The position numbers and the translations under genes are program-made. The notes under the pieces are model-generated. The model worked only from the letters and a program-made list of their open reading frames with translations, did no database searches and was not told the origin of the DNA. Positions 6,881-52,667 of a DNA stretch of 64,000 nucleotides are shown one piece after another. Within the stretch, counting starts at the first letter, position 1. Every line of letters begins with the position of its first letter. The stretch is from Chryseosolibacter histidinae. Its GTDB lineage: Bacteria > Bacteroidota > Bacteroidia > Cytophagales > Cyclobacteriaceae. The stretch lies in assembly GCF_018598225.1 (NCBI RefSeq), contig NZ_JAHESF010000013.1:62001-126000 (forward strand), in the 5' to 3' direction.

Positions 6881-7828
6881 TTACAGCGCTACTTTTTGTT
6901 TGTCATTGACAGCATGCGGGAGGGTCTCAAGTTTTTTGAAGAATCCGAGATCGTCGAGCTGTTTGATCAGCGATTGCTCGTCTTCTTTGGTGAGGTTGCT
7001 CAACGGCAGGCGGCAAGGTCCGAGGTCAATACCCAGTCGTTTCACAATGGCCTTCTGCGCGGGAATGGGCGGAAACTTCAGCAGGATCTTCACCATCTCC
7101 ACAAGGTAGAACATTTTACTGCGTGCGTCTTCCATGTCACCTTTTTCAAAGCTCTTCATCACCTGCAGGTACAACGGTGCAGCAAACGTGTAGGTGCTTC
7201 CGATCGCTCCCTTCGCTCCAACGGTGAGCGCCGGCAGCAGCATCTCATCAAACCCAAAGAGGATATCGTACTTGCCTTGCGCATAGTTCAGGCACAGCTG
7301 ATATTCCCAGATGGTAGCGGCCGTATACTTGATACCCTTGAGGTTCGGAATACTTTTCTCACCAAGCTTCAGCACTTCCGTCATGTCCATGTTCATGCCG
7401 GTGAGGTGAGGTATGTTGTAATAATAAAACGGGAGCTGAGGCGCAGCACTGGCGATCTCTGCCAGCGCGTCAACAAGATTCTTAACGGATCCCGGCTTGA
7501 AGTAAAATGCCGCTACCGATGAGATGGCATCGGCGCCGATCTCCGCAGCGTGTGCCGCCAGCTTCTGCGACTCGCGGATGCTGGTATGCCCTACGTGAAC
7601 ATATACCTTGATGCGCGAGCCCACCGCATCCTTAAAGGCCTTGGCCACCTCCATCCTTTCTTCCATCATCATATTGGGTCCCTCACCATTGCTGCCGCAC
7701 ACGAATATGCCTTTCAACCCATCCGCGATCATTTTTTCAACATACGCAGGGATGGTCTCTAGACGCAATTCGCCTTTCGCATCAAAAGGTGTGAAGGGAG
7801 CTGCCATTAAGCCTGTAAAATGATTCAT
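6881..7828 (-). CDS. nanA: N-acetylneuraminate lyase
   Basis: Class I aldolase of the DapA/NanA fold that splits N-acetylneuraminate into N-acetylmannosamine and pyruvate in the cytoplasm. At 315 residues it has the expected length. The catalytic Tyr137 sits in YYYNIP and the Schiff-base Lys167 in KGIKYTA. The pyruvate-binding loop reads GSNGEG (residues 45-50), with Asn where Escherichia coli NanA has Thr, a difference common among lyase-family variants. It is flanked by the sialidase upstream and, two bases away, the kelch-symporter downstream, which strongly supports sialic acid over other keto-acid substrates. A TTATGTA half-site lies directly upstream at 7830-7836 but lacks a matching second arm. 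Confidence 0.9.
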   Translation of the reverse strand: MNHFTGLMAAPFTPFDAKGELRLETIPAYVEKMIADGLKGIFVCGSNGEGPNMMMEERMEVAKAFKDAVGSRIKVYVHVGHTSIRESQKLAAHAAEIGADAISSVAAFYFKPGSVKNLVDALAEIASAAPQLPFYYYNIPHLTGMNMDMTEVLKLGEKSIPNLKGIKYTAATIWEYQLCLNYAQGKYDILFGFDEMLLPALTVGAKGAIGSTYTFAAPLYLQVMKSFEKGDMEDARSKMFYLVEMVKILLKFPPIPAQKAIVKRLGIDLGPCRLPLSNLTKEDEQSLIKQLDDLGFFKKLETLPHAVNDKQKVAL

Positions 7829-7888
7829 ATTATGTAATTAAAAATGTAGTTAGTTTTCTGTTTATACTATACTGTTTTCTTTTCACGG

Positions 7889-8000
7889 GATCCTTCGCTC
7901 GCGCAAAGCCCCCACACAAACACCGCTCAGGATGACGGATTGGCGAAGCCCGGGAAGATCCTTCGCTCGCGCAAAGCCACACACAAACCTCACTCAGGAT
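7889..8000. repeat. Two direct copies of a GATCCTTCGCTCGCGC repeat
   Basis: Two units, 7889-7934 and 7957-8000, each start GATCCTTCGCTCGCGC and end CTCAGGAT, about 45 bases long and 23 bases apart. They lie in the gap between the sialidase and the lyase genes. A decayed relative (GAGCGAAGGACC and neighbours) occurs around 17505-17670. Confidence 0.8.
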
Positions 8001-8080
8001 ACCGGTTACCTGCGGACAACATCTCACTAAACCCGTGGGACGCCCTTCTGACTCCTGGCTCCTGACTTCCGGCTTCTCCT

Positions 8081-8115
8081 CCTTACTCCTTACTCCTTAC
8101 TCCTTACTCCTTACC
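8081..8115. repeat. Heptamer tandem array (CCTTACT)n
   Basis: About five copies of the 7-base unit CCTTACT (GGAGTAA on the minus strand). The array overlaps the 3' end of the sialidase gene and supplies its last codons (VRSKE) and stop. Looser CTCCTGAC units precede it at 8048-8070. Confidence 0.85.
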
Positions 8116-9782
8116 CTAGCACCCAAAATCTCCTCTATGGGTAACCGCTGAAACACCATATCAGCCTGACTACTTTCATAGAGGATACCAATCGTCCGCT
8201 CATCCACGGAAGTGAGGCACGAATATCCTCTGCTCTTCAACTCGTCCAGCAACACCTGATATTGTTGAGGCCACGTTTTGCCATCATCGAGACTTGCTTT
8301 GATGGTCATGTGATCGCGTGCTGTTTTCGAGTCAGGATTAGAGAACACGAGCACACTTTTTTTACCCTTGCCGGGGATGTCGTGCCGGTGTATCGAGCCC
8401 ATACACGTAGGCTCACGCAAGGCGCTGAAAGAAGTGGGGTGGCGGGTCCATGTTTCACCCAGATCGTAGGTCACGGCAACGGCACGGCCATTGGTAGCAG
8501 ACGTATCGGTCCGGTTCCGGTTGGCGCGCATGTTGAGCATGATGGCGCCATCGCTCAGCTCAACGGCCATGTTCTCGGTTGTGCTTTCGGCGGAAGCGCG
8601 GTTGCTGGTCTTCCATGTTTTGCCCCCGTCTTTGCTGTAGGTAATATTGGAGAACGAGCCACCATTCTCATCGCGGCCCTGTGTCGGGAATACCAATGTT
8701 CCATCGCGCAATGTGATGCCATGGCCTGGTGCGGGAGCCCACAACCACCACGATTCTTTTTTACACATTTTGGTGAGGTTCACAGGTTCGCTCCAGGTTT
8801 TGCCATCGTCCGTGCTCTTTACCAGCAGGAACTGCGAGGTCTGCTTCACGTCGAATCCTGGCTGCGAGCCTTTGTTGCGCCACTGGTGGTTCCAGTCCTT
8901 GCTCTCGTCATTGAGCCCTTCTATCCATTTTCCGTCTTCGTTGATCACGCCATACATCCACAAACCAGCGATGTAGATGGTGCCTGAATTCCGGTCAACA
9001 AGAATGCAGGCATCCGACACACCGTTGAATTTTTCTCCGAGGCCACCCCACTGTTTCATGTCGATAGCGATGCGCATCGGCTCCCAGGTGTTGCCACCAT
9101 CGGTGCTGCGGCTTACGCCAATATCGATGTTACCCTGAAGGTCACGTGCGCTTTCGCGGCGCACATCGTAAATGGCCAGCAACGTACCCTTGTTGGTGGT
9201 GGTGAGCCCCGGGATGCGGTAAGTATGCACACCGTCGTCGTTGTGCTTCCGCACGGCCACGCCAATTCGCTGTCTGAAGTTGCTCTTCTTTTTGAAAACG
9301 ATCTCACTTCCCGACCGAAGCGAGATCTTCCGGCATGATGCGGCCACAAAGTTCTGAAGCCCCGCGTTGTCGCTCAGCTCGTACGAAAGCCAGAAAAAGT
9401 TGTCGCCAGGCTGAAGCTGATGCTCAAGCGGGAAAACGATCTTCTTTTCAGCTTTGTCCAATTCAGCGAGGGGCGCGGTGTCCGGAGACTTGTCCAGCCA
9501 CTTCTCATCACCGTCGCTGCCAGCGTAGAAGAGGCGCACCTTTTTAATGTCTTTGAGCTGTGTGGTACCTTCGGCACTGAACTCCAGTGCTGTCAATGGG
9601 TCAGAAGACCCATTGACATTAACCCTAACCTGGAACACCGGGTTGTTCTTCTTATACTTCAATACCGGTACCTGAAGTTGCCGTTCGGTGACCGTTATTT
9701 TTTTTTCTACCGGCCTGAAGCTGATGAAAGCGAAGAGGCCAGCGAGAAGCACAAGCAGAACAAAACCACGTTTCATATTCAT
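8097..9782 (-). CDS. Exo-alpha-sialidase, GH33 family, with N-terminal beta domain
   Basis: Releases terminal sialic acid from glycans. The 561-residue product has an N-terminal export helix (FVLLVLLAGLFAFISF) without a lipobox cysteine, so it is periplasmic or secreted. Residues ~30-165 form a beta-rich domain found in front of some Bacteroidota sialidases. The six-bladed catalytic domain follows: the arginine motif YRIPGL (~residue 187), four Asp boxes (STDGGNTW, STDDGKTW, SKDGGKTW, SLDDGKTW), an acidic ENMAVELSDG segment, and late GILYE, where the nucleophile tyrosine is expected. The C-terminus is written by a heptamer repeat array. Neighbours are a PKD/LamG lipoprotein upstream and the lyase downstream. 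Confidence 0.92.
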   Translation of the reverse strand: MNMKRGFVLLVLLAGLFAFISFRPVEKKITVTERQLQVPVLKYKKNNPVFQVRVNVNGSSDPLTALEFSAEGTTQLKDIKKVRLFYAGSDGDEKWLDKSPDTAPLAELDKAEKKIVFPLEHQLQPGDNFFWLSYELSDNAGLQNFVAASCRKISLRSGSEIVFKKKSNFRQRIGVAVRKHNDDGVHTYRIPGLTTTNKGTLLAIYDVRRESARDLQGNIDIGVSRSTDGGNTWEPMRIAIDMKQWGGLGEKFNGVSDACILVDRNSGTIYIAGLWMYGVINEDGKWIEGLNDESKDWNHQWRNKGSQPGFDVKQTSQFLLVKSTDDGKTWSEPVNLTKMCKKESWWLWAPAPGHGITLRDGTLVFPTQGRDENGGSFSNITYSKDGGKTWKTSNRASAESTTENMAVELSDGAIMLNMRANRNRTDTSATNGRAVAVTYDLGETWTRHPTSFSALREPTCMGSIHRHDIPGKGKKSVLVFSNPDSKTARDHMTIKASLDDGKTWPQQYQVLLDELKSRGYSCLTSVDERTIGILYESSQADMVFQRLPIEEILGARVRSKE

Positions 9783-9820
9783 ACCGATCTTTTATCCGGT
9801 GAAACCATCATTTAAATTTA

Positions 9821-11326
9821 TCAAAGATTGAACAAAGCGGTGATCTCTGCCGGTGTCAATGCTTTTTTGTAGACGATCAGGTCGTCGATGAGGCCACTGT
9901 ACTGGTTGCTGTAACCTGTAGTGGTTTCCTGCATGCCTACTTTGAAGTTACCTTCGTTGGAAACCACCTTCAAGCCGTTTGTGGAAGCCCTTGTTCCGGC
10001 CTGCACACCATCGATGAATATCGTGGTATTCAAACCATCGCGAACACACACCACATGGTGCCATACACCATCATGGATCTTGGCGCTTGCTGCAGTAAGG
10101 TTCAGCGTTGATCCGCCGGCTACATCTTCCGTTGCAAACGCTGTGAGGTTGGTTGCTGTGCCCAGGATCCGCATCCAGGTCTGGTTATCGCCAGTGCCCT
10201 TGCCACCACTCTCCTGCCACACCATCGCCCTGACGGCAACGCTCGTTTTCACCCAGCACGATACACTGTAATTGCCACTTCCAAAATTGAATGCATCGTG
10301 GTTTGGAACAAAAAATCCGCCTGTAGCATTGAACACCGCTGCGTTACTGGCTACCGACTTCCTGTCCATATCCGTGAATGCGATGGTGCCTACTGTTGTG
10401 GTCGTCACCTTTGACGGCCCTGCGTCGTTGATGCTGCCGTGGAAAGGGAAGAATGCCGTAAGGTCTCCACCGGGCACCACCAGCACGTAGCTCTCCTTCT
10501 CGATGGTAGAAGACCTGATCGGGTTGTAGGCCACCAGCTTTACTTTATAACGTCCCGGCGTGTTGTAGGTAATGGACGGATTCTGTGCTGTTGAAGAAGA
10601 CGGCGTGCCACCATCGAAGGTCCACGTCCATGACTCCGCGCGGCCTATCGATTCATCCGTAAAGCTAACGGAACCACCTGTATACGTCGCCGCAAGATCG
10701 CTTCTGAACCCGGCCACTACGGCATTGGGATCGATCACTGTGATATAATTTTCCTTCGTCTTCTCCCCTGAATACTCGGGATTGGACGCCTTGAGCTTAA
10801 CAGTATACGTGCCCAATTCTGTAAAGGTCATGGATGGATTCTGATTCGAAGAGGTCAGCACCGTTCCGGCTGCCGACTTAAACTCCCACTGCCATGTTTT
10901 AGGTATTCCCGTACTCTTATCCGTAAATACCACAGGCTCTCCCTGTTTCACAACGGTATTCTCAACACTGAAGTCAGCGGTGATCTCGTTATATCCTACC
11001 GTAATGTACGACTCTTTCGTCTGAACAGAAGTGCCGCTCTTGTTGGCGAGCTCCAGTGTCACTGCATAGGTTCCGGGAACAGTGTACACTACAGTCGGCC
11101 CTGAAAGACCCGACGTCGATGGCTCTGCACCTTCGAATGTCCATTTCCACGATGAAGCCTGACCGAGGGATATATCGGTAAAGGTCACGCTCTGACCCGC
11201 ACGGATCGACTCGGCTGATGCTTCAAAATCGGCTTTCAACGGTTTTTCATCTTCATCGTCGCATGACATGAGACACACCGCCGCGATCCAGAAAAGGGAG
11301 AGAAGTGTTGGTTTGATATTTTTCAT
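9821..11326 (-). CDS. PKD and LamG-domain surface lipoprotein
   Basis: A 501-residue lipoprotein, probably cell-surface, with lipobox CLMSC near residue 22 followed by an acidic DDEDEK stretch, the export signal typical of Bacteroidota surface lipoproteins. Three PKD domains occupy roughly residues 32-110, 115-195 and 200-285; each repeats a W-W-F and PGTY/TYTVKL core. Residues ~290-500 form a concanavalin-like LamG domain, with SCWVKT, WHHVVCVRDG and IDDLIVYKKALT motifs. It is inferred to bind the target glycan beside SusD, in the position a SusE/F-like protein holds in other loci. It is encoded between the two sialidases with ~20-40 base gaps, so it is in the same transcript. Confidence 0.88.
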   Translation of the reverse strand: MKNIKPTLLSLFWIAAVCLMSCDDEDEKPLKADFEASAESIRAGQSVTFTDISLGQASSWKWTFEGAEPSTSGLSGPTVVYTVPGTYAVTLELANKSGTSVQTKESYITVGYNEITADFSVENTVVKQGEPVVFTDKSTGIPKTWQWEFKSAAGTVLTSSNQNPSMTFTELGTYTVKLKASNPEYSGEKTKENYITVIDPNAVVAGFRSDLAATYTGGSVSFTDESIGRAESWTWTFDGGTPSSSTAQNPSITYNTPGRYKVKLVAYNPIRSSTIEKESYVLVVPGGDLTAFFPFHGSINDAGPSKVTTTTVGTIAFTDMDRKSVASNAAVFNATGGFFVPNHDAFNFGSGNYSVSCWVKTSVAVRAMVWQESGGKGTGDNQTWMRILGTATNLTAFATEDVAGGSTLNLTAASAKIHDGVWHHVVCVRDGLNTTIFIDGVQAGTRASTNGLKVVSNEGNFKVGMQETTTGYSNQYSGLIDDLIVYKKALTPAEITALFNL

Positions 11327-11346
11327 AACACAGTTATTCTAATTTC

Positions 11347-12537
11347 TTACATAAAATCTGAAATGTTCACTATTCGGTAAGCGATGCCATCCCAATACTT
11401 GCTGGTGCCGGCCTCATACAGGATACCGACCTGGGTATTGGACAACATCACGATGTCTGAGTAACCGGAAAGCCCGGTATACACGCTGTACTGTTTCGTC
11501 CACGACGCGCCGTCATCCTGGCTCATTTTGATGGTCATGTTCGTGCGTGTAGTAGCCGCAGCGTTGGAGAAGAACAGGGTGTGCTTGTTGTCGATGATGG
11601 CCGACAGCAGGCTTGCCTGGCAGACCGGATCCACAAGTCCGTAGGCCGTAGCCACAGGCGCCCAGGTGATGCCGGCATCCGTGCTCCGCGATACCAGGCG
11701 CAGGTTATTGTTTCCACTGACGCGCATGTTCAGCATGAGCTTTCCGTCAGAGAGCTCCGCCACGGTGCTTTCGTTGGGATTGAGGCTATGCTGCGGTGTA
11801 ACGCCGCCGAGCTTCCAGGTCACGCCTGCATCGTCGGAGTAGATCACGTGTGAGTAACCTCTTCCGCCGGCCGACTTCAGCTCGATATTGTCGCAGGGAA
11901 TCACAAGCCGTCCTGCATGTGCGCCCTTCGTAAGCTGGATGCCATGGCAAGGGCCCGTAGCATACCAGCCCCAGGTGGCCAGCTTCACCGAGGATGTGAT
12001 CTCCTTCGGGGTCGCCCAGGTAACACCATCGTCTTCGGAGCCCGTATAAAATACGCGGCGGGTATCGGTGCTCGTTCCGGCGTTGATCGTTCCGATATCG
12101 TCGGCACCGAAGTTCCAGGTCATGAGCAGGTGGATCTTGCCGGTGGCCTGATCGACAACCGGTGCAGGATTGCCGCAGGTGTTTTTGCCATCGCTCCAGA
12201 CCACGCTCAGCTTGCTCCACGTTTTGCCGTCGTCAGAAGAACGTTTTACCACCAGGTCGATGTCGTCTTCGTCCGAGCAGTTGGTCTTGCGTCCTTCGGC
12301 AAAAGCCAGCAACGTTCCTGCCCTGGTCTTGATAATGGCCGGGATACGGAAACAGCTATATCCTTCCGAGTTCACGGCATAGATGTGCGTGAACGCTGTA
12401 TTGGATGGAGGCTCTTCTGTTTCATCCGGGTCAGGCTTGGGATTTACGGGATCATCATCTCCGCCACAGGAAAGCAGGAAGATGACCGCCGGCAGCAGTA
12501 ATAAATTTCTGTACAACGTAGCAGCTATTCTTTTCAT
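11347..12537 (-). CDS. Sialidase lipoprotein, GH33 family
   Basis: Second sialidase of the locus, shorter than its neighbour. From the ATG at 12537 it has 396 residues, with signal helix and lipobox FLLSC followed by GGDDD, so it is probably anchored on the cell surface. It carries the arginine motif FRIPAI, Asp boxes SSDDGKTW, SEDDGVTW, SDDAGVTW, STDAGITW and SQDDGASW, the NESTVAELSDGKLMLNMR segment and terminal GILYEAG. A longer in-frame start at 12606 overlaps the susD stop and is disfavoured. Being surface-tethered and lacking the extra N-terminal domain, it likely makes the first cut on host or environmental sialoglycans. Specific linkage preference cannot be seen. Confidence 0.9.
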   Translation of the reverse strand: MKRIAATLYRNLLLLPAVIFLLSCGGDDDPVNPKPDPDETEEPPSNTAFTHIYAVNSEGYSCFRIPAIIKTRAGTLLAFAEGRKTNCSDEDDIDLVVKRSSDDGKTWSKLSVVWSDGKNTCGNPAPVVDQATGKIHLLMTWNFGADDIGTINAGTSTDTRRVFYTGSEDDGVTWATPKEITSSVKLATWGWYATGPCHGIQLTKGAHAGRLVIPCDNIELKSAGGRGYSHVIYSDDAGVTWKLGGVTPQHSLNPNESTVAELSDGKLMLNMRVSGNNNLRLVSRSTDAGITWAPVATAYGLVDPVCQASLLSAIIDNKHTLFFSNAAATTRTNMTIKMSQDDGASWTKQYSVYTGLSGYSDIVMLSNTQVGILYEAGTSKYWDGIAYRIVNISDFM

Positions 12538-12577
12538 ACGCACTTTTCGGTTAACAGCGTCCGGTTCTTTTCTGAGG

Positions 12578-14014
12578 TTATTGCTGATAACCCGTTGTTT
12601 GTTCAAGGTTACCGTTGATGGCGATCTGGGTTTTCGGGATCGGGAAGAACAGCGGGATGTTCTTTCCGTTCAGGTTAGGCACCTCGTTGTAAGCGTTGAT
12701 GGTGCCGCCATAGTGGAACCTCACCAGGTCGGGCCAGCGTTTCAGCTCGAACCACAGCTCCCTGAAACGTTCATCCAGGATCGCCTTCTCTACAGACTGT
12801 TTGTCCGTTGCGCCTGTATAGTTGCCGGTGCCTGCCCTGACCCGCACTTTGTCAAGCTCCGTCACGGCTTCGGTAGGGCGGTTCAGCGCTGCAAGGGCTT
12901 CGGCACGGAACAGGATCAGCTCCGCCGCTCGGTAGATCACAATGTCGTCTTCCCAGTAACGGTCATCTGTATAAACCGTCCCCCTGAACTTGTTGTCGAA
13001 GACGCCGATCACATTGTTGCTGGCATCCACGGCTGTGATCATGGAAGCTGCTTTCCGCACATCGTTGGCGGCAAACATGCCCAGCGCTTTCGGGCTCGGA
13101 GAATACACGCTCCGGGCACCGTTCTTGGAATACGGCACGGAAGCTTTGTTGCTCGCATTGTTCACGAAGATATCCCGGGCTTTCAACCGGCTGCCATACT
13201 GGTCAGACTTCTCGTTGCGGAGGAAATAAAGGGAGAAAATAATCTCGGCATTTTTCTTCTTGTCAGTGGCATGGATCTCGGCAAAGTTCTGCAGGAGCGA
13301 AACACCCGATGCCAACGCCTGGTCTACAGCCGCGATGACTGCCTGCAGGTCCTCATTCGAACCTTGCAGCACTTTGTACTTCCACAACAGCGCATCTGCC
13401 TTGAGGCTCAGCGCTGTGGGCACCGAAGCCTGGTTCTTATTCACAAATCCTGATTCAGGGAAGGATGCAAGCGATTGCTCGATATCGTTAAGGATCAGGT
13501 TCATCACTTCTGTTGCAGGCGCACGCGACGGTAGTTTTCGGTCACCGCTTTCGGTAGGTTCCAGCACGATCGGCACATCACCCCAGATGCGCACCATGAG
13601 GAAGTATGTGTAAGCCCGCAGGAAGTAAGCCTGCGCGATAGACCTCCTGATCTTCTCGCTGTTGCCGATGCCCGGCGCGTATTTGATCACGAGGTTGCAA
13701 TGGTGCACGATGTAGTAGAAGTCCTGCCAGTCAGGCGCATTCGATTCAGTCAAATTCTGCGCCCAGGCTACGGATACAGATCCTTCGAGCCCTGCAACGA
13801 AGGCGTCACCACGGTCTTCGAGGAAGTACGTTTGATTCATGAGGTTCCGGAATACGAAGTAGATACCCGTGACGTATCCTGTCACATCGCCCTCTCCCTT
13901 CCAATAGCTGGCGTTCGTGATGTCTGACACCGGCGCGATCTCAAGCGTGTCTTTGCACCCGAAGGGCAGCATCAGACAACCGATGAGCGTACATATTGTT
14001 ATGACCTTCTTCAT
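12578..14014 (-). CDS. SusD/RagB-family glycan-binding lipoprotein
   Basis: Outer-membrane lipoprotein that captures glycan at the cell surface and forms a lid on the SusC transporter. It has 478 residues and a lipobox at FGC (~residue 20) followed by the usual KDTLEIAP start of mature SusD proteins. TPR-like helices include AYFLRAYTYFLMVRIWGDVP and RAAELILFRAEALAALNR, and the family C-terminal signature reads ILDERFRELWFELKRWPDLVRF, ending in FPIPKTQI. It begins 12 bases after susC. Sialidase neighbours suggest sialylated oligosaccharides as ligand, which is inference. Confidence 0.95.
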   Translation of the reverse strand: MKKVITICTLIGCLMLPFGCKDTLEIAPVSDITNASYWKGEGDVTGYVTGIYFVFRNLMNQTYFLEDRGDAFVAGLEGSVSVAWAQNLTESNAPDWQDFYYIVHHCNLVIKYAPGIGNSEKIRRSIAQAYFLRAYTYFLMVRIWGDVPIVLEPTESGDRKLPSRAPATEVMNLILNDIEQSLASFPESGFVNKNQASVPTALSLKADALLWKYKVLQGSNEDLQAVIAAVDQALASGVSLLQNFAEIHATDKKKNAEIIFSLYFLRNEKSDQYGSRLKARDIFVNNASNKASVPYSKNGARSVYSPSPKALGMFAANDVRKAASMITAVDASNNVIGVFDNKFRGTVYTDDRYWEDDIVIYRAAELILFRAEALAALNRPTEAVTELDKVRVRAGTGNYTGATDKQSVEKAILDERFRELWFELKRWPDLVRFHYGGTINAYNEVPNLNGKNIPLFFPIPKTQIAINGNLEQTTGYQQ

Positions 14015-49230: not shown

Positions 49231-49875
49231 ATGGCGCAGATAAAAAAACTGATCGAAACATTGGACTATGACGGGCTGCGCCGGCTGCTCTCGGCAAATC
49301 CCGCACTGGCCAATAAAGGCATAGCGTTCGATGAAAAAAATCCCGCCGAGGCGCATCCCCTGCACAGGATCTGTGACGGTGTTTTTTGTGGAATCTATTC
49401 AGATGAGCAAGCCACAGAGATCGCCCGGATCTTCCTGGAGCACGGAGCCCATATCGATGGCTTCAGCCTGGTACAAAAAAAGGATACACCCCTGATCGCT
49501 GCCGCCAGTCTTCATGCCGAAAAGGTGGGCATGCTCTATGCAGACCGTGGTGCAAATCTCCACCACCCCGGATGCCATGGCGGAACAGCCCTGCACTGGG
49601 CAGCCTGGACGGGCCGGGAAAACCTCGTAAGAAAATTGATCGCTGCGGGCGCTGACATCCATAAAAAATGCATCGACTTCGGCGGCACTCCCCTGCTGTG
49701 GGCGGTGCACGGTTATAAATTCGGTGGTGGCAAGAACAGACACCACCAGATCGATTGCGTGCAGCTGCTGCTGGAAGCCGGCGCTGACAAAACTGTTACA
49801 AACAACGAAGGCACTCCCCTCCTGGGTTTCCTCAACGGTGAAGATGAGGCAATGAAAGCCGCCCTTCTGCAATAA
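49231..49875 (+). CDS. Ankyrin-repeat protein
   Basis: A 214-residue cytoplasmic protein (no signal or membrane helix) with about four to five ankyrin repeats: LSANPALANKG, ARIFLEHGAHIDGFSL, KDTPLIAAASLHAEKVGMLYADRGANLHHPG, GGTALHWAAWTGRENLVRKLIAAGADIHKK, GGTPLLWAVHGYKF and CVQLLLEAGADKTVTNNEGTPL. It presumably mediates protein-protein contact; the partner is unknown. It lies immediately upstream of the radical SAM fusion gene with ~120 bases between, but no functional link is visible. Confidence 0.9.
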   Translation: MAQIKKLIETLDYDGLRRLLSANPALANKGIAFDEKNPAEAHPLHRICDGVFCGIYSDEQATEIARIFLEHGAHIDGFSLVQKKDTPLIAAASLHAEKVGMLYADRGANLHHPGCHGGTALHWAAWTGRENLVRKLIAAGADIHKKCIDFGGTPLLWAVHGYKFGGGKNRHHQIDCVQLLLEAGADKTVTNNEGTPLLGFLNGEDEAMKAALLQ

Positions 49876-49992: not shown

Positions 49993-51822
49993 GTGACAGA
50001 TCCATCTGGAAAAATTTCACCTGCCTTAGCTGAAATGAAAACAGAAACGTTATCCAGGCCCGGCCTTTTTAAACATGTGCTGATCCAGACAAATGTAAAA
50101 TGTACACTTCAGTGCTCGTTTTGCCTGTATGGGATGAAGGATGTGCAAGTTGAAAATGTGGATATGTCAGACGCACTGTTCAGGAAGATCGTTCAGGAAC
50201 TGGCTGATATTGACTACGCAGGGCGCGTCAGCCTGTTCGAGATCAATGAACCTTTGATGGACGAAAACCTTGTGGAGAAGATCCGCTACGTAAAACAAAG
50301 GGTGCCCAAAAGCTGGCAGTACATCAGTACGAACGGCGACCTGTTAACAGTAGAAAAAACCGTCGAGATGATCGATGCGGGACTCGACTACCTTACCATC
50401 AACTCATATTCTTACGCGAGCTACCGCAAGATCAAAACATTAAAAAGCGCTCTGCCCAGCGAGGTCCGGTTGCGCGTTATCCACACTGATCATTTCAACC
50501 CCGATTTCGCGGCAGACAACAGGGCAGGAAATCTTCCGCACATCGCCTCCGTGCAAGAGCCTTTGAAGGAAAGCTGCAGCCGGGTGAACAACGTCCTGTA
50601 CATCAAACCCGATGGAACGGTGGTATCCTGCTTCGGCGATTTTTTCAACAAGAACGTGATGGGGGACGCCAACACCGAAAACATCGTGGATATCTGGTAC
50701 GGAGCGCCCTTCACAAAACTGAGAAGCCACCTCGACAACGCCGACCGCACACCGAACGAACTCTGCCGCAAATGCAACATGCGGGCATCGGGCAATTACC
50801 TGGAGCGTTACGACATACTTCCGAAACTGGCACAAAGCTCCAATCTTCCCAGGGGCGCGATCATAGGTGCAAGCTCCAGTGCACAGATGTTCTATCCGTA
50901 CCTTGAAAAATACGCAAAGGTGGAATGGCTTGTTTCCCATACAGTAGCCTCAACCCAACCGTCTAAAAAGATCGGACGGCTGAAGGTTTCTGACAACTAT
51001 TCCAAAGTGTTGACTGATCCAACATTGGATTTTGTATTCATCGCTAATGCCAACGGGCTTCACTATGAAACAGCAGTCAGGGCGTTGGAGGCAGAAAAGC
51101 ACGTGCTCATTGAAAAACCGTTGTCGCTTTCGCTGGAAGAATGCGATACGTTGATCAGGCTGGGCCGCGAAAAGAACCTGGTGGTGGGCGGCGTCTTTCA
51201 ATGGCGGTTCATGCATACGGTTAAATTTGTAAAAGAGCTCTTGCGCACCCGTGCCCTGGGGAACATCATTTTTGTCAATTGCAACCTGTTGTGGAAGCGT
51301 GACGCGGATTATTTCGTTAACGGCCGGGGTACCTGGAAAAATGACGGTGGTGGCGTGCTCATGAAACAAGCGATCCATTGCATCGACCTGCTCCTTTACC
51401 TGTTCGGCGCCCCGGTTTCCCATCATGCCTTTGTATCGAACACCGTGGGCCACCGCGAAACAGAAGACAGCGCCAGTGTTCTCATTCAATTCCCGGAAGG
51501 TATTGCAACCCTGAATGCCACCATCGTAAACGCCGATAACCTGACGCCGGAAGTGGATATCATCGGAACAGCAGGAAGGATCACCTTCGACTTCAACGAT
51601 GTTTTTAAATGCTGGCAATGTGCAGTGCCTGAACCGGAGCTAAAACCAAATGGCCTTACTGTATTCGACAAACAGATCATGAATTTCATCAATGCCATCC
51701 AGGGAAAAGAGTCTTTGAATGTGACCGCTGAATCGTGTATAGGATCGCTGTCACTGATACTGGATATCTATAAGGATAACACCCAATCACCTAACGCCTT
51801 CCAGTCCCTGACGTCTTCTTGA
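49993..51822 (+). CDS. Radical SAM-SPASM protein fused to Gfo/Idh/MocA oxidoreductase
   Basis: An unusual two-enzyme fusion of 609 residues. Residues ~28-180 are a radical SAM core with the cluster motif C37-x3-C41-x2-C44 (CTLQCSFC). Residues ~195-265 are a SPASM-like region with Cys at 195, 213, 258 and 261, enough for one auxiliary 4Fe-4S cluster. Residues ~287-600 are a Gfo/Idh/MocA oxidoreductase: a Rossmann start IIGASSSAQ instead of GxGxxG, NANGLHYETAVRAL, catalytic-type EKPL at 373-376, and GGGVLMKQAIHCIDLL. The last aligns with the GGGxLMNQGIH motif of sugar-nucleotide 3-dehydrogenases but has Lys for Asn/Asp. Start is GTG at 49993 or ATG at 50035. A paired radical/redox modification of a sugar or cyclitol is inferred; the substrate is unknown. 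Confidence 0.85.
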   Translation: MTDPSGKISPALAEMKTETLSRPGLFKHVLIQTNVKCTLQCSFCLYGMKDVQVENVDMSDALFRKIVQELADIDYAGRVSLFEINEPLMDENLVEKIRYVKQRVPKSWQYISTNGDLLTVEKTVEMIDAGLDYLTINSYSYASYRKIKTLKSALPSEVRLRVIHTDHFNPDFAADNRAGNLPHIASVQEPLKESCSRVNNVLYIKPDGTVVSCFGDFFNKNVMGDANTENIVDIWYGAPFTKLRSHLDNADRTPNELCRKCNMRASGNYLERYDILPKLAQSSNLPRGAIIGASSSAQMFYPYLEKYAKVEWLVSHTVASTQPSKKIGRLKVSDNYSKVLTDPTLDFVFIANANGLHYETAVRALEAEKHVLIEKPLSLSLEECDTLIRLGREKNLVVGGVFQWRFMHTVKFVKELLRTRALGNIIFVNCNLLWKRDADYFVNGRGTWKNDGGGVLMKQAIHCIDLLLYLFGAPVSHHAFVSNTVGHRETEDSASVLIQFPEGIATLNATIVNADNLTPEVDIIGTAGRITFDFNDVFKCWQCAVPEPELKPNGLTVFDKQIMNFINAIQGKESLNVTAESCIGSLSLILDIYKDNTQSPNAFQSLTSS

Positions 51823-52667
51823 ATGCCGGCACTGCGAGCGATGAGCGTATAGATATCGCCGGGTGTTTTGCCTTGCTTTCGCAGGTATTGGATCGAAGTG
51901 TCACCAGCAGATTTTGAGAGTTTTCTTCCACCAGGTCCCGTGAACAACGCATGGTGATGGAAAGTGCTATTGGTAAAACTATCTATTCCCAGTACGCCGG
52001 CCAGATAATGCTGCGCCAGGGTCGAGGGCCACAGATCCATTCCCCGCACAATGAGATCGATGCCAAAGTATTGGTCATCCACCAGTGAGGCCAGGTGGTA
52101 AGCGGGGAAACCGTCTTTTTTACGCACGATAAAATCCTGCTGTTCGCGTGGCAGGAAAGCATTAACGGGGTATGCCAGTGTCTTTACAGTAAGTGGTAGG
52201 TCATCCGTTGTGTGCAGACGCCAGCTCACTTCCTTCGCATCAAAAGGCAGCCCTCTTTGGCGGCACCGGCCAGTATAGGCACCGGTAGGATCGGCCTTCA
52301 GAATATCGGTTCTGGAGCAATCGCATACAAAGAGCGCCCCACCGTCCCTCAGCGCGTTCAATGCCTCGTTATACAAACCCAAACGGTGCACCTGCGAATA
52401 GTCGCGTTCAAACTCATGCGCGTTCCGGGGACCTTCGTGCCATGGAATACCAAGAAAATTGAGCGTATCAAAAATATCCTGTATGTAAGCGGGTTGTGCT
52501 CGTTGCCGGTCGAGGTCATCGATCCTCAGTAAAATGCCGGCCTTGTACCTGTCGGCCAGTGCTGCCGTGAGTGCGAAGGAGAAAGCATTGCCCAGGTGCA
52601 GGTAGCCACTGGGCGTGGGTGCTATTCTGGTCTTGCGCACAAGTGCGTGGCCGGGATTGGTGTCCAT
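51768..52667 (-). CDS. gluQ: Glutamyl-Q tRNA(Asp) synthetase
   Basis: A 299-residue glutamyl-tRNA synthetase paralogue without the anticodon-binding domain, as expected for GluQ-RS (YadB). It attaches glutamate to the queuosine at position 34 of tRNA-Asp. The class I signatures are PTPSGYLHLGNAF (HIGH-type) and GGRKLSKSAG (KMSKS-type). A zinc-type pattern FVCDCSR...YTGRCR is present. Its 3' end overlaps the 3' end of the convergent radical SAM fusion gene by 55 bases. It is transcribed away from the tRNA-Asp gene, whose 5' end is 83 bases from its start codon. Confidence 0.93.
   Translation of the reverse strand: MDTNPGHALVRKTRIAPTPSGYLHLGNAFSFALTAALADRYKAGILLRIDDLDRQRAQPAYIQDIFDTLNFLGIPWHEGPRNAHEFERDYSQVHRLGLYNEALNALRDGGALFVCDCSRTDILKADPTGAYTGRCRQRGLPFDAKEVSWRLHTTDDLPLTVKTLAYPVNAFLPREQQDFIVRKKDGFPAYHLASLVDDQYFGIDLIVRGMDLWPSTLAQHYLAGVLGIDSFTNSTFHHHALFTGPGGRKLSKSAGDTSIQYLRKQGKTPGDIYTLIARSAGIQEDVRDWKALGDWVLSL

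Follow-up and report, generated by a model that had tools for sequence, protein, structure and literature searches.

A single reading frame of Chryseosolibacter histidinae joining a BtrN-like radical SAM half to a Gfo/Idh/MocA oxidoreductase half

Radical S-adenosylmethionine (SAM) enzymes and the nicotinamide-dependent oxidoreductases of the Gfo/Idh/MocA family are normally separate proteins, and a gene that appears to encode both raises the question of whether the fusion is real and, if so, what the two chemistries might do in one chain. The gene lies in a stretch of 64,000 nucleotides from Chryseosolibacter histidinae (contig NZ_JAHESF010000013.1, positions 62,001 to 126,000 of the forward strand), hereafter the window, where it occupies positions 49993-51822 of the plus strand. 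An earlier note, made from the letters alone, had described an uninterrupted frame with C37-x3-C41-x2-C44, four later cysteines, a full dehydrogenase domain and the motif EKPL, and all of these are present as described. The analysis reported here also upholds its proposal that two chemistries usually kept apart are joined in a real fusion, both halves of which are predicted by modelling to fold as expected.

The fusion gene and its two halves

The frame runs from a GTG start to a TGA stop over 609 codons; it is open from 49975, and an in-frame alternative ATG at 50035 retains all domains. Four Pfam domains (Radical_SAM, SPASM, GFO_IDH_MocA and GFO_IDH_MocA_C3) were found in the one chain, and because every score exceeds its cut-off chance domain matches can be excluded. 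It is extremely unlikely that the gene is an assembly or sequencing artefact or is decaying: such an origin would fit with the fusion being a singleton, no second one having come from any search, but it is contradicted by a frame that has no stop or frame break, at the domain junction or elsewhere, by a location inside a 222-kb contig (source genome 8.04 Mb) and by the retention of the cluster ligands, EKP and His462. Codon use is also typical of the window in both halves, the scores of -1.09 and -1.11 comparing with a mean of -1.11 (standard deviation 0.06) for 37 window genes, while third-position G+C is 0.63 and 0.58 against a gene mean of 0.61. Both halves are host-like in their codon use.

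The first half belongs to the radical SAM superfamily (PF04055), having both the CxxxCxxC motif and a domain score over the cut-off. Residues 1-285 contain seven cysteines in total (C37, C41, C44, C195, C213, C258 and C261) and no cysteine beyond these seven ligands. The full SPASM domain has been described as a seven-cysteine motif for two auxiliary clusters (PMC6231123); only four cysteines follow the core motif in residues 1-285, and these align with the four cysteines of the single auxiliary site of BtrN. Judged from this alignment the arrangement is that of a twitch domain and not of a full SPASM domain, and of the earlier SPASM label the four cysteines and the one auxiliary cluster site are what stands.

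The best match of the radical half among solved structures was BtrN (phmmer E-value 7e-32, residues 25-276, all seven cluster cysteines included), and a profile built from seven relatives scored BtrN at 222 bits compared with 44 for the best other chain. An AlphaFold2 model of this half had a mean predicted local distance difference test (pLDDT) score of 84.2. For the alignment behind it (A6), E-value, length and redundancy served to choose 54 viral proteins out of 221 matching frames, and 53 of the 54 were used; one row (L328) is cut short, lacks two ligand cysteines and, with six cysteines, is the only row with seven or fewer. Foldseek with the model placed BtrN first (1e-21), and VIA-align aligned 236 residues to BtrN with Z 29.5 and a root-mean-square deviation (rmsd) of 2.2, the next entries being ChlB (17.2, the best other than BtrN) and the twitch dehydrogenase SpeY (14.2). 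The modelled radical half thus has the BtrN fold together with the BtrN cluster ligands. BtrN is a cyclitol-amine dehydrogenase, and that it is the nearest solved structure strengthens the earlier suggestion that the substrate is a ketosugar or a cyclitol.

Residues from about 286 to 609 form a complete Gfo/Idh/MocA oxidoreductase, both Pfam domains of the family scoring over cut-off. The two halves were folded separately, a combined alignment (A4) having partly misplaced the radical SAM rows onto the other half, and the AlphaFold2 model of the second half, made with 45 relatives, had a mean pLDDT of 88.4; these relatives (alignment A7, 44 viral proteins plus L012) were those used out of 55 picked Gfo proteins. 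The closest fold was that of 1,5-anhydrofructose reductase (Z 35.9, rmsd 2.2, 309 residues), with WlbA tied among the closest at Z 35.4 and the aminoglycoside enzymes GenD2 and KanD2 at 34.1 and 32.4.

The motif positions of the Gfo/Idh/MocA family are EKP, a catalytic histidine, a glycine in the dinucleotide-binding loop and an Asp or Asn four residues before the histidine. EKP is found at E374-K375-P376, and H462 occupies the position of the catalytic histidine. The loop glycine and the Asp/Asn are replaced by Ser294 and Lys458, the usual letters being present in 44/45 and 35/45 relatives, and the loop IIGASSSAQ (290-298) and Lys458 are as unusual as had been suspected, with Gly at the loop position in 44 of the 45 relatives and Lys at position 458 in none. 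Both positions vary within the family, so the two changes bear on function more than on membership. Position 458 is Asn in the best matches of L128-L132, the five nearest stand-alone relatives found, His in a more distant second gene of L132 and Thr in the gene of a congener (L010), and a loop Ser recurs in L028, a further Gfo protein encoded in this genome. The second half is thus whole, yet changed at two positions. It contains six cysteines, and a Cys-Trp-Gln-Cys stretch at residues 540-543 (51610-51621) falls where between 28 and 44 of the 45 relatives are gapped.

A proposed reaction and its rivals

The reading tentatively preferred here, at somewhat under an even chance, is that the fusion is a bifunctional sugar or cyclitol enzyme whose radical half makes a ketone and whose nicotinamide half reduces that ketone or its dehydration product. 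In the initial step the twitch radical SAM half would cleave SAM and abstract a hydrogen atom from a carbinol carbon, the second electron passing to the auxiliary [4Fe-4S] cluster and leaving a ketone, as in BtrN; family, fold, cluster ligands and the want of a spare cysteine together suggest this step. The Gfo/Idh/MocA half would then bind nicotinamide adenine dinucleotide or its phosphate, NAD(P)(H), and acting through EKP and His462 would reduce this ketone, or the product of its dehydration, before it is lost from the enzyme. The likely net outcome is that one alcohol carbon is epimerised; deoxygenation is less likely. Activity, order of steps and class of substrate are what we infer from a single frame, complete domains, motifs and predicted folds.

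The cysteine complement bears on the choice between oxidation and epimerisation in the radical half itself. BtrN has been described as a two-electron oxidant whose auxiliary cluster has cysteine at every ligand position (PMC9012708), and the epimerase NeoN as ending its reaction with a hydrogen atom from Cys249 (PMC10991966). Residues 1-285 have no extra cysteine that could serve as a donor of the NeoN/HygY type, and because no cysteine is spare the half is better explained as a dehydrogenase that depends on another reductant than as an epimerase working alone. A hydrogen donor may conceivably come from among the six cysteines of the Gfo half. A bolder version of the preferred reading, possible but doubtful, is a one-chain radical epimerase that oxidises and then re-reduces, in which a nicotinamide dehydrogenase attached to a BtrN-like radical dehydrogenase takes the place of the donor cysteine, a sugar hydroxyl is inverted or removed at the expense of an irreversible radical oxidation and Lys458 reshapes the second site to suit the radical product.

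A number of observations weigh against a bifunctional enzyme with BtrN-type oxidation, beginning with phylogeny. In a maximum-likelihood tree of 67 rows BtrN, a Sodalis relative and a relative from genome G986 form a clade (99/97) that excludes the radical half of the fusion, which is a long branch without a supported sister; its join with another long branch, L023 (89/23), was flagged as possibly false, and the nearest row by path is a relative from genome G330 at 31% identity. Orthology with BtrN was rejected on this placement, with the caution that a long branch is involved, and since the radical half lies outside the BtrN clade the reaction of BtrN is not simply transferable to it; the half is BtrN-like in fold and ligands and is not a BtrN orthologue. 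Glu189 of BtrN corresponds to Gly215 in the fusion. The Arg of the N-R-x-G motif is invariant in the seven rows of alignment A3 and is also present in 47 of the 53 viral relatives, for which reason Arg177 was rejected as a marker of BtrN-type oxidation. Every one of the 52 uncut viral relatives has at least eight cysteines in the matching core, as does each of the six other rows of A3 and of the eleven other rows of alignment A1, a contrast that speaks for a dehydrogenase; but BtrN, a proven dehydrogenase, itself has eight, one beyond the seven, so that the cysteine count is only suggestive and gives no rule for dehydrogenases. In the second half Ser294 and Lys458, to judge from the residues they replace, could weaken or abolish hydride transfer, and a separate shorter product starting at Met263 is conceivable from the sequence at the junction, where no Shine-Dalgarno-like stretch was seen by eye before the ATG. 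Genomic context adds to these points. No pathway partner and no local aminocyclitol pathway was recognised among the open reading frames of the window, most of them read by eye, in agreement with the earlier observation that no partner lies nearby and that the flanks are an ankyrin-repeat gene and a GluQRS-like gene; that the fusion is for this reason a self-contained enzyme system is a guess. A Gfo gene was found in 1/16 contexts of radical SAM relatives (L126), and of 240 viral loci picked by pattern among the matches listed, 164 gave a strong match to the BtrN-like radical SAM profile, two of the 164 (L159 and L183) having a Gfo gene as well.

Four other accounts of the fusion were weighed against the preferred one. 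It is rather unlikely that the Gfo half has lost its redox chemistry and helps the radical half as a scaffold, for binding substrate or for oligomerisation. Ser294 at a loop position that is Gly in 44/45 relatives, Lys458 at an Asp/Asn position that is Lys in 0/45, and the Asn found there in 5/5 of the nearest stand-alone relatives would all suit a scaffold, but EKP and His462 are retained, the fold is predicted to be intact and codon use is normal; moreover 10/45 relatives have neither Asp nor Asn at position 458, and the loop Ser of L028 in the same genome indicates that Ser294 alone need not be disabling. A reversed order, in which the Gfo half oxidises a sugar to an activated ketosugar that becomes the substrate of the radical half, is unlikely. 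The solved relatives closest to the Gfo half do include dehydrogenases of sugars and nucleotide sugars (WlbA, levoglucosan dehydrogenase, GenD2 and KanD2), and WlbA oxidises UDP-N-acetylglucosaminuronic acid (UDP-GlcNAcA). The four-cysteine auxiliary site and the resemblance to BtrN nevertheless suggest that the radical half is itself the oxidant, and the score for UDP-GlcNAc 3-dehydrogenase (NF040723), 75.4 bits, is far under the cut-off of 450.

No more probable than a reversed order is deoxygenation in place of epimerisation, with the radical half an AprD4-like diol dehydratase and the Gfo half an AprD3-like NADPH reductase, so that one hydroxyl is removed. The fusion would then unite two roles whose pairing has been described on an aminoglycoside (PMC5461906), but by a wide margin the nearest structure is the dehydrogenase BtrN. 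The same structural match, to a small-molecule dehydrogenase, tells against a maturase acting in cis, whereby the radical half would modify a residue of the attached oxidoreductase. Enzymes with SPASM or twitch domains have been described as including peptide and sulfatase maturases (PMC6231123), and putative metalloenzyme maturases are among the weak NCBIfam matches of the radical half, every one of which scores far below its cut-off. Pfam revealed no peptide-binding domain, and this account is very improbable.

Searches, neighbourhoods and features of the window

No second fusion was found with the full protein in 3 genomes of the genus, with the radical half in draws of 295, 395, 390, 200, 150, 86 and 178 genomes (partly overlapping, E limits 1e-8 to 1e-15) or with the Gfo half in 296 genomes (E limit 1e-30), all of these genomes being of one phylum. 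The radical half was in neither of 2 congeners examined. A scan of 84,980 species with exact peptides, which sees close relatives alone, returned only two distant Gfo genes. Across 377 loci the radical SAM profile was matched by 260 frames and the Gfo profile by 110, and both profiles were matched only in the fusion gene itself. The earlier note had envisaged that homologues might always be split and that the fusion might stem from a sequencing error: all the homologues seen at these loci are indeed split, but there is no sign of such an error. Among plasmids no place covering 80% of the whole protein was found by tblastn, by which the radical half alone matched 27 plasmid records and 1 phage record, and a single-protein scan gave no viral relative. 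Two candidates were rejected. The 579-residue open frame at L128 belongs to an ordinary Gfo gene whose frame happens to stay open a long way upstream, and its context has no radical SAM match; the partner in the bi-domain frame at L026/L038 reads as a zinc-type dehydrogenase. Narrow text searches of titles and abstract openings of open papers returned no description of such a fusion. Both halves come from known families, and their combination in one chain is not found elsewhere in the genomes searched.

The neighbourhoods of relatives of the radical half are varied. The Sodalis relative shares a gene run with a PIG-L deacetylase, a glycosyltransferase and a 2-deoxy-scyllo-inosose synthase, and an aminotransferase lies ~10 kb away; a Brachyspira plasmid relative lies among rhamnan and dTDP-rhamnose genes, and the relative in G501 is in an apparent glycan cluster. 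The G330 relative is among housekeeping-like genes and the G986 relative among permease-like genes with one glycosyltransferase-like neighbour. These neighbourhoods suggest sugar chemistry without establishing a partnership, and unfused neighbours were set aside as weak proof of it, the two domains being seldom co-located. BLAST gave nothing significant between the Gfo gene at L126 and the fusion (best E 0.41), and no radical SAM match lies around any of the five nearest stand-alone Gfo genes (L133-L137). Of 80 viral loci picked by a Gfo gene among the matches listed, two (L090 and L121) had a radical SAM match, in both cases weak.

Several of these loci have features of their own. In G908 a run at L126:7283-13629 contains a glycosyltransferase, a polysaccharide deacetylase, a radical SAM gene, a possible methyltransferase, a TauD-type dioxygenase and the Gfo-type gene, and looks like a sugar natural-product cluster. 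A frame of 1,080 residues in G468 (L035:5830-9069) has glycosyltransferase group 1 domains and a BtrN-like radical SAM domain, and is directly followed by a second radical SAM frame at L035:9088-10119. On a phage contig a Gfo-type gene, a 2-oxoglutarate-oxygenase-like gene and a BtrN-like radical SAM gene stand in a row (L183:7874-10334); the genes upstream read like portal, scaffold and capsid, and the Gfo-type protein matched no PHROG family. One group among the aligned viral loci (L138-L377) has the motifs N-N-R-S-G and F-C-x-N-D-W.

The fusion is not located in a 2-deoxystreptamine pathway with a 2-deoxy-scyllo-inosose synthase. Its own genome has only two AroB-family matches, both on other contigs and both sharing 34% identity with the Sodalis enzyme across 256-260 residues, and both genes pass NCBIfam cut-offs for 3-dehydroquinate synthase, which the Sodalis enzyme does not. 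On contig C32 (L379) a UbiA-like gene, an AroB-like gene (NCBIfam 561 bits) and possibly an isomerase-like gene adjoin one another, a group which we take to resemble the ebo cluster and which is a possible source of a cyclitol in the same genome.

The coordinates of the fusion gene, its features and its flanking genes are collected in Table 1. The ends of the fusion and the GluQRS-like gene overlap tail to tail by 55 bases (51768-51822). A scan for promoters and terminators gave fewer sites than in shuffles and was set aside. Elsewhere in the window, at 6881-12606, a DHDPS-family gene (perhaps an N-acetylneuraminate lyase) adjoins a BNR sialidase-type gene and a further sialidase-like gene, with SusD-/SusC-like genes beyond, and this is probably a locus for the use of sialic acid. 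The SusC/SusD-type proteins of the window suggest an origin in the Bacteroidota.

Table 1. Positions in the window of the fusion gene, its domains and key residues, and the two flanking genes
Feature	Position	Strand	Basis or remark
Fusion gene, 609 aa, twitch radical SAM + Gfo/Idh/MocA oxidoreductase	49993..51822	+	GTG start; alternative ATG 50035
Radical_SAM core match, residues 34-137, with C37-x3-C41-x2-C44	50092..50403	+	Pfam PF04055 32.1 bits, cut-off 29.5
Arg177 of N-R-A-G motif, aligned with BtrN Arg152	50521..50523	+	Printed BtrN alignment, numbered by counting
SPASM/twitch domain, residues 195-262, with C195, C213, C258, C261	50575..50778	+	Pfam 44.3 bits, cut-off 21.5; all four align with BtrN cysteines
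Met263, in-frame ATG before linker	50779-50781	+	Junction sequence read
Linker region, residues 267-285	50791..50847	+	pLDDT <50 at C-terminal end of first-half model
Gfo/Idh/MocA nucleotide-binding domain, residues 289-398	50857..51186	+	Pfam PF01408 62.5 bits, cut-off 24; structure model
Ser294 at second glycine of dinucleotide-binding loop	50872..50874	+	Gly 44/45, Ala 1/45 relatives (A7)
Glu374-Lys375-Pro376, family EKP motif (EKPL from 374)	51112..51120	+	Lys 45/45, Pro 45/45, Glu 44/45 relatives
Gfo/Idh/MocA C-terminal domain, residues 412-530	51226..51582	+	Pfam GFO_IDH_MocA_C3 PF22725 85.3 bits, cut-off 27
Lys458 at usual Asp/Asn position	51364..51366	+	45 relatives: 30 Asp, 5 Asn, 10 other, 0 Lys
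His462, within IHCID from 461	51376..51378	+	39 His, 6 Tyr among 45 relatives
Ankyrin-repeat gene, upstream neighbour, no evident link	49231..49875	+	Pfam Ank_2 77.5 bits
GluQRS-like gene, convergent neighbour	51768..52667	-	Pfam tRNA-synt_1c; NCBIfam GluQRS 187.5 bits, under cut-off 250

Comparison with known systems

If both halves work, the fusion would be a radical SAM dehydrogenase joined to its own NAD(P)H-dependent partner, the passage of a radical product to a nicotinamide step could be tested in one purified protein, and there would be a second route of radical-driven epimerisation, independent of a hydrogen-donor cysteine. The claim is limited, as the fusion is a singleton without a known substrate; the architecture is clear, testable and unusual.

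Among known systems the radical half is most like BtrN, the 2-deoxy-scyllo-inosamine dehydrogenase of butirosin biosynthesis (PDB 4m7s, 4m7t), with which it has in common the fold, CxxxCxxC, the four auxiliary cysteines and N-R-x-G, at 28% identity in alignment A1. A Phe follows the second auxiliary cysteine in both BtrN and the fusion and in 0/53 viral relatives (29 Cys, 15 Ser, 9 other), and it is the residue after this Phe that differs, as Glu189 in BtrN and Gly215 in the fusion. The solved chain of BtrN is stand-alone, and the fusion is without a cyclitol-synthase cluster. The other half has the two-domain fold, EKP and the His462 of 1,5-anhydro-D-fructose reductase, WlbA and other Gfo sugar oxidoreductases (PDB 2glx, 3q2i, 3q2k); unlike 1,5-anhydro-D-fructose reductase and WlbA it has a loop Ser, a Lys for Asp/Asn and a radical SAM enzyme in front. 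In the same genome the bi-domain protein at L038:4-1941 likewise has a Gfo domain behind another oxidoreductase, but its partner reads by eye as a zinc-type alcohol dehydrogenase and not as a radical enzyme.

The radical SAM epimerases NeoN and HygY, the latter reportedly with a twitch domain, possibly have a net reaction in common with the fusion. The donor described for NeoN, Cys249, has no counterpart in the radical half of the fusion. A precedent in the manner of working is the pair AprD4 and AprD3 of apramycin biosynthesis, described as a radical SAM enzyme and an NADPH-dependent reductase acting on one sugar position of an aminoglycoside (PMC5461906), the radical step being followed by the nicotinamide step. 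These are two partner proteins, and their radical step is a dehydration and not a dehydrogenation.

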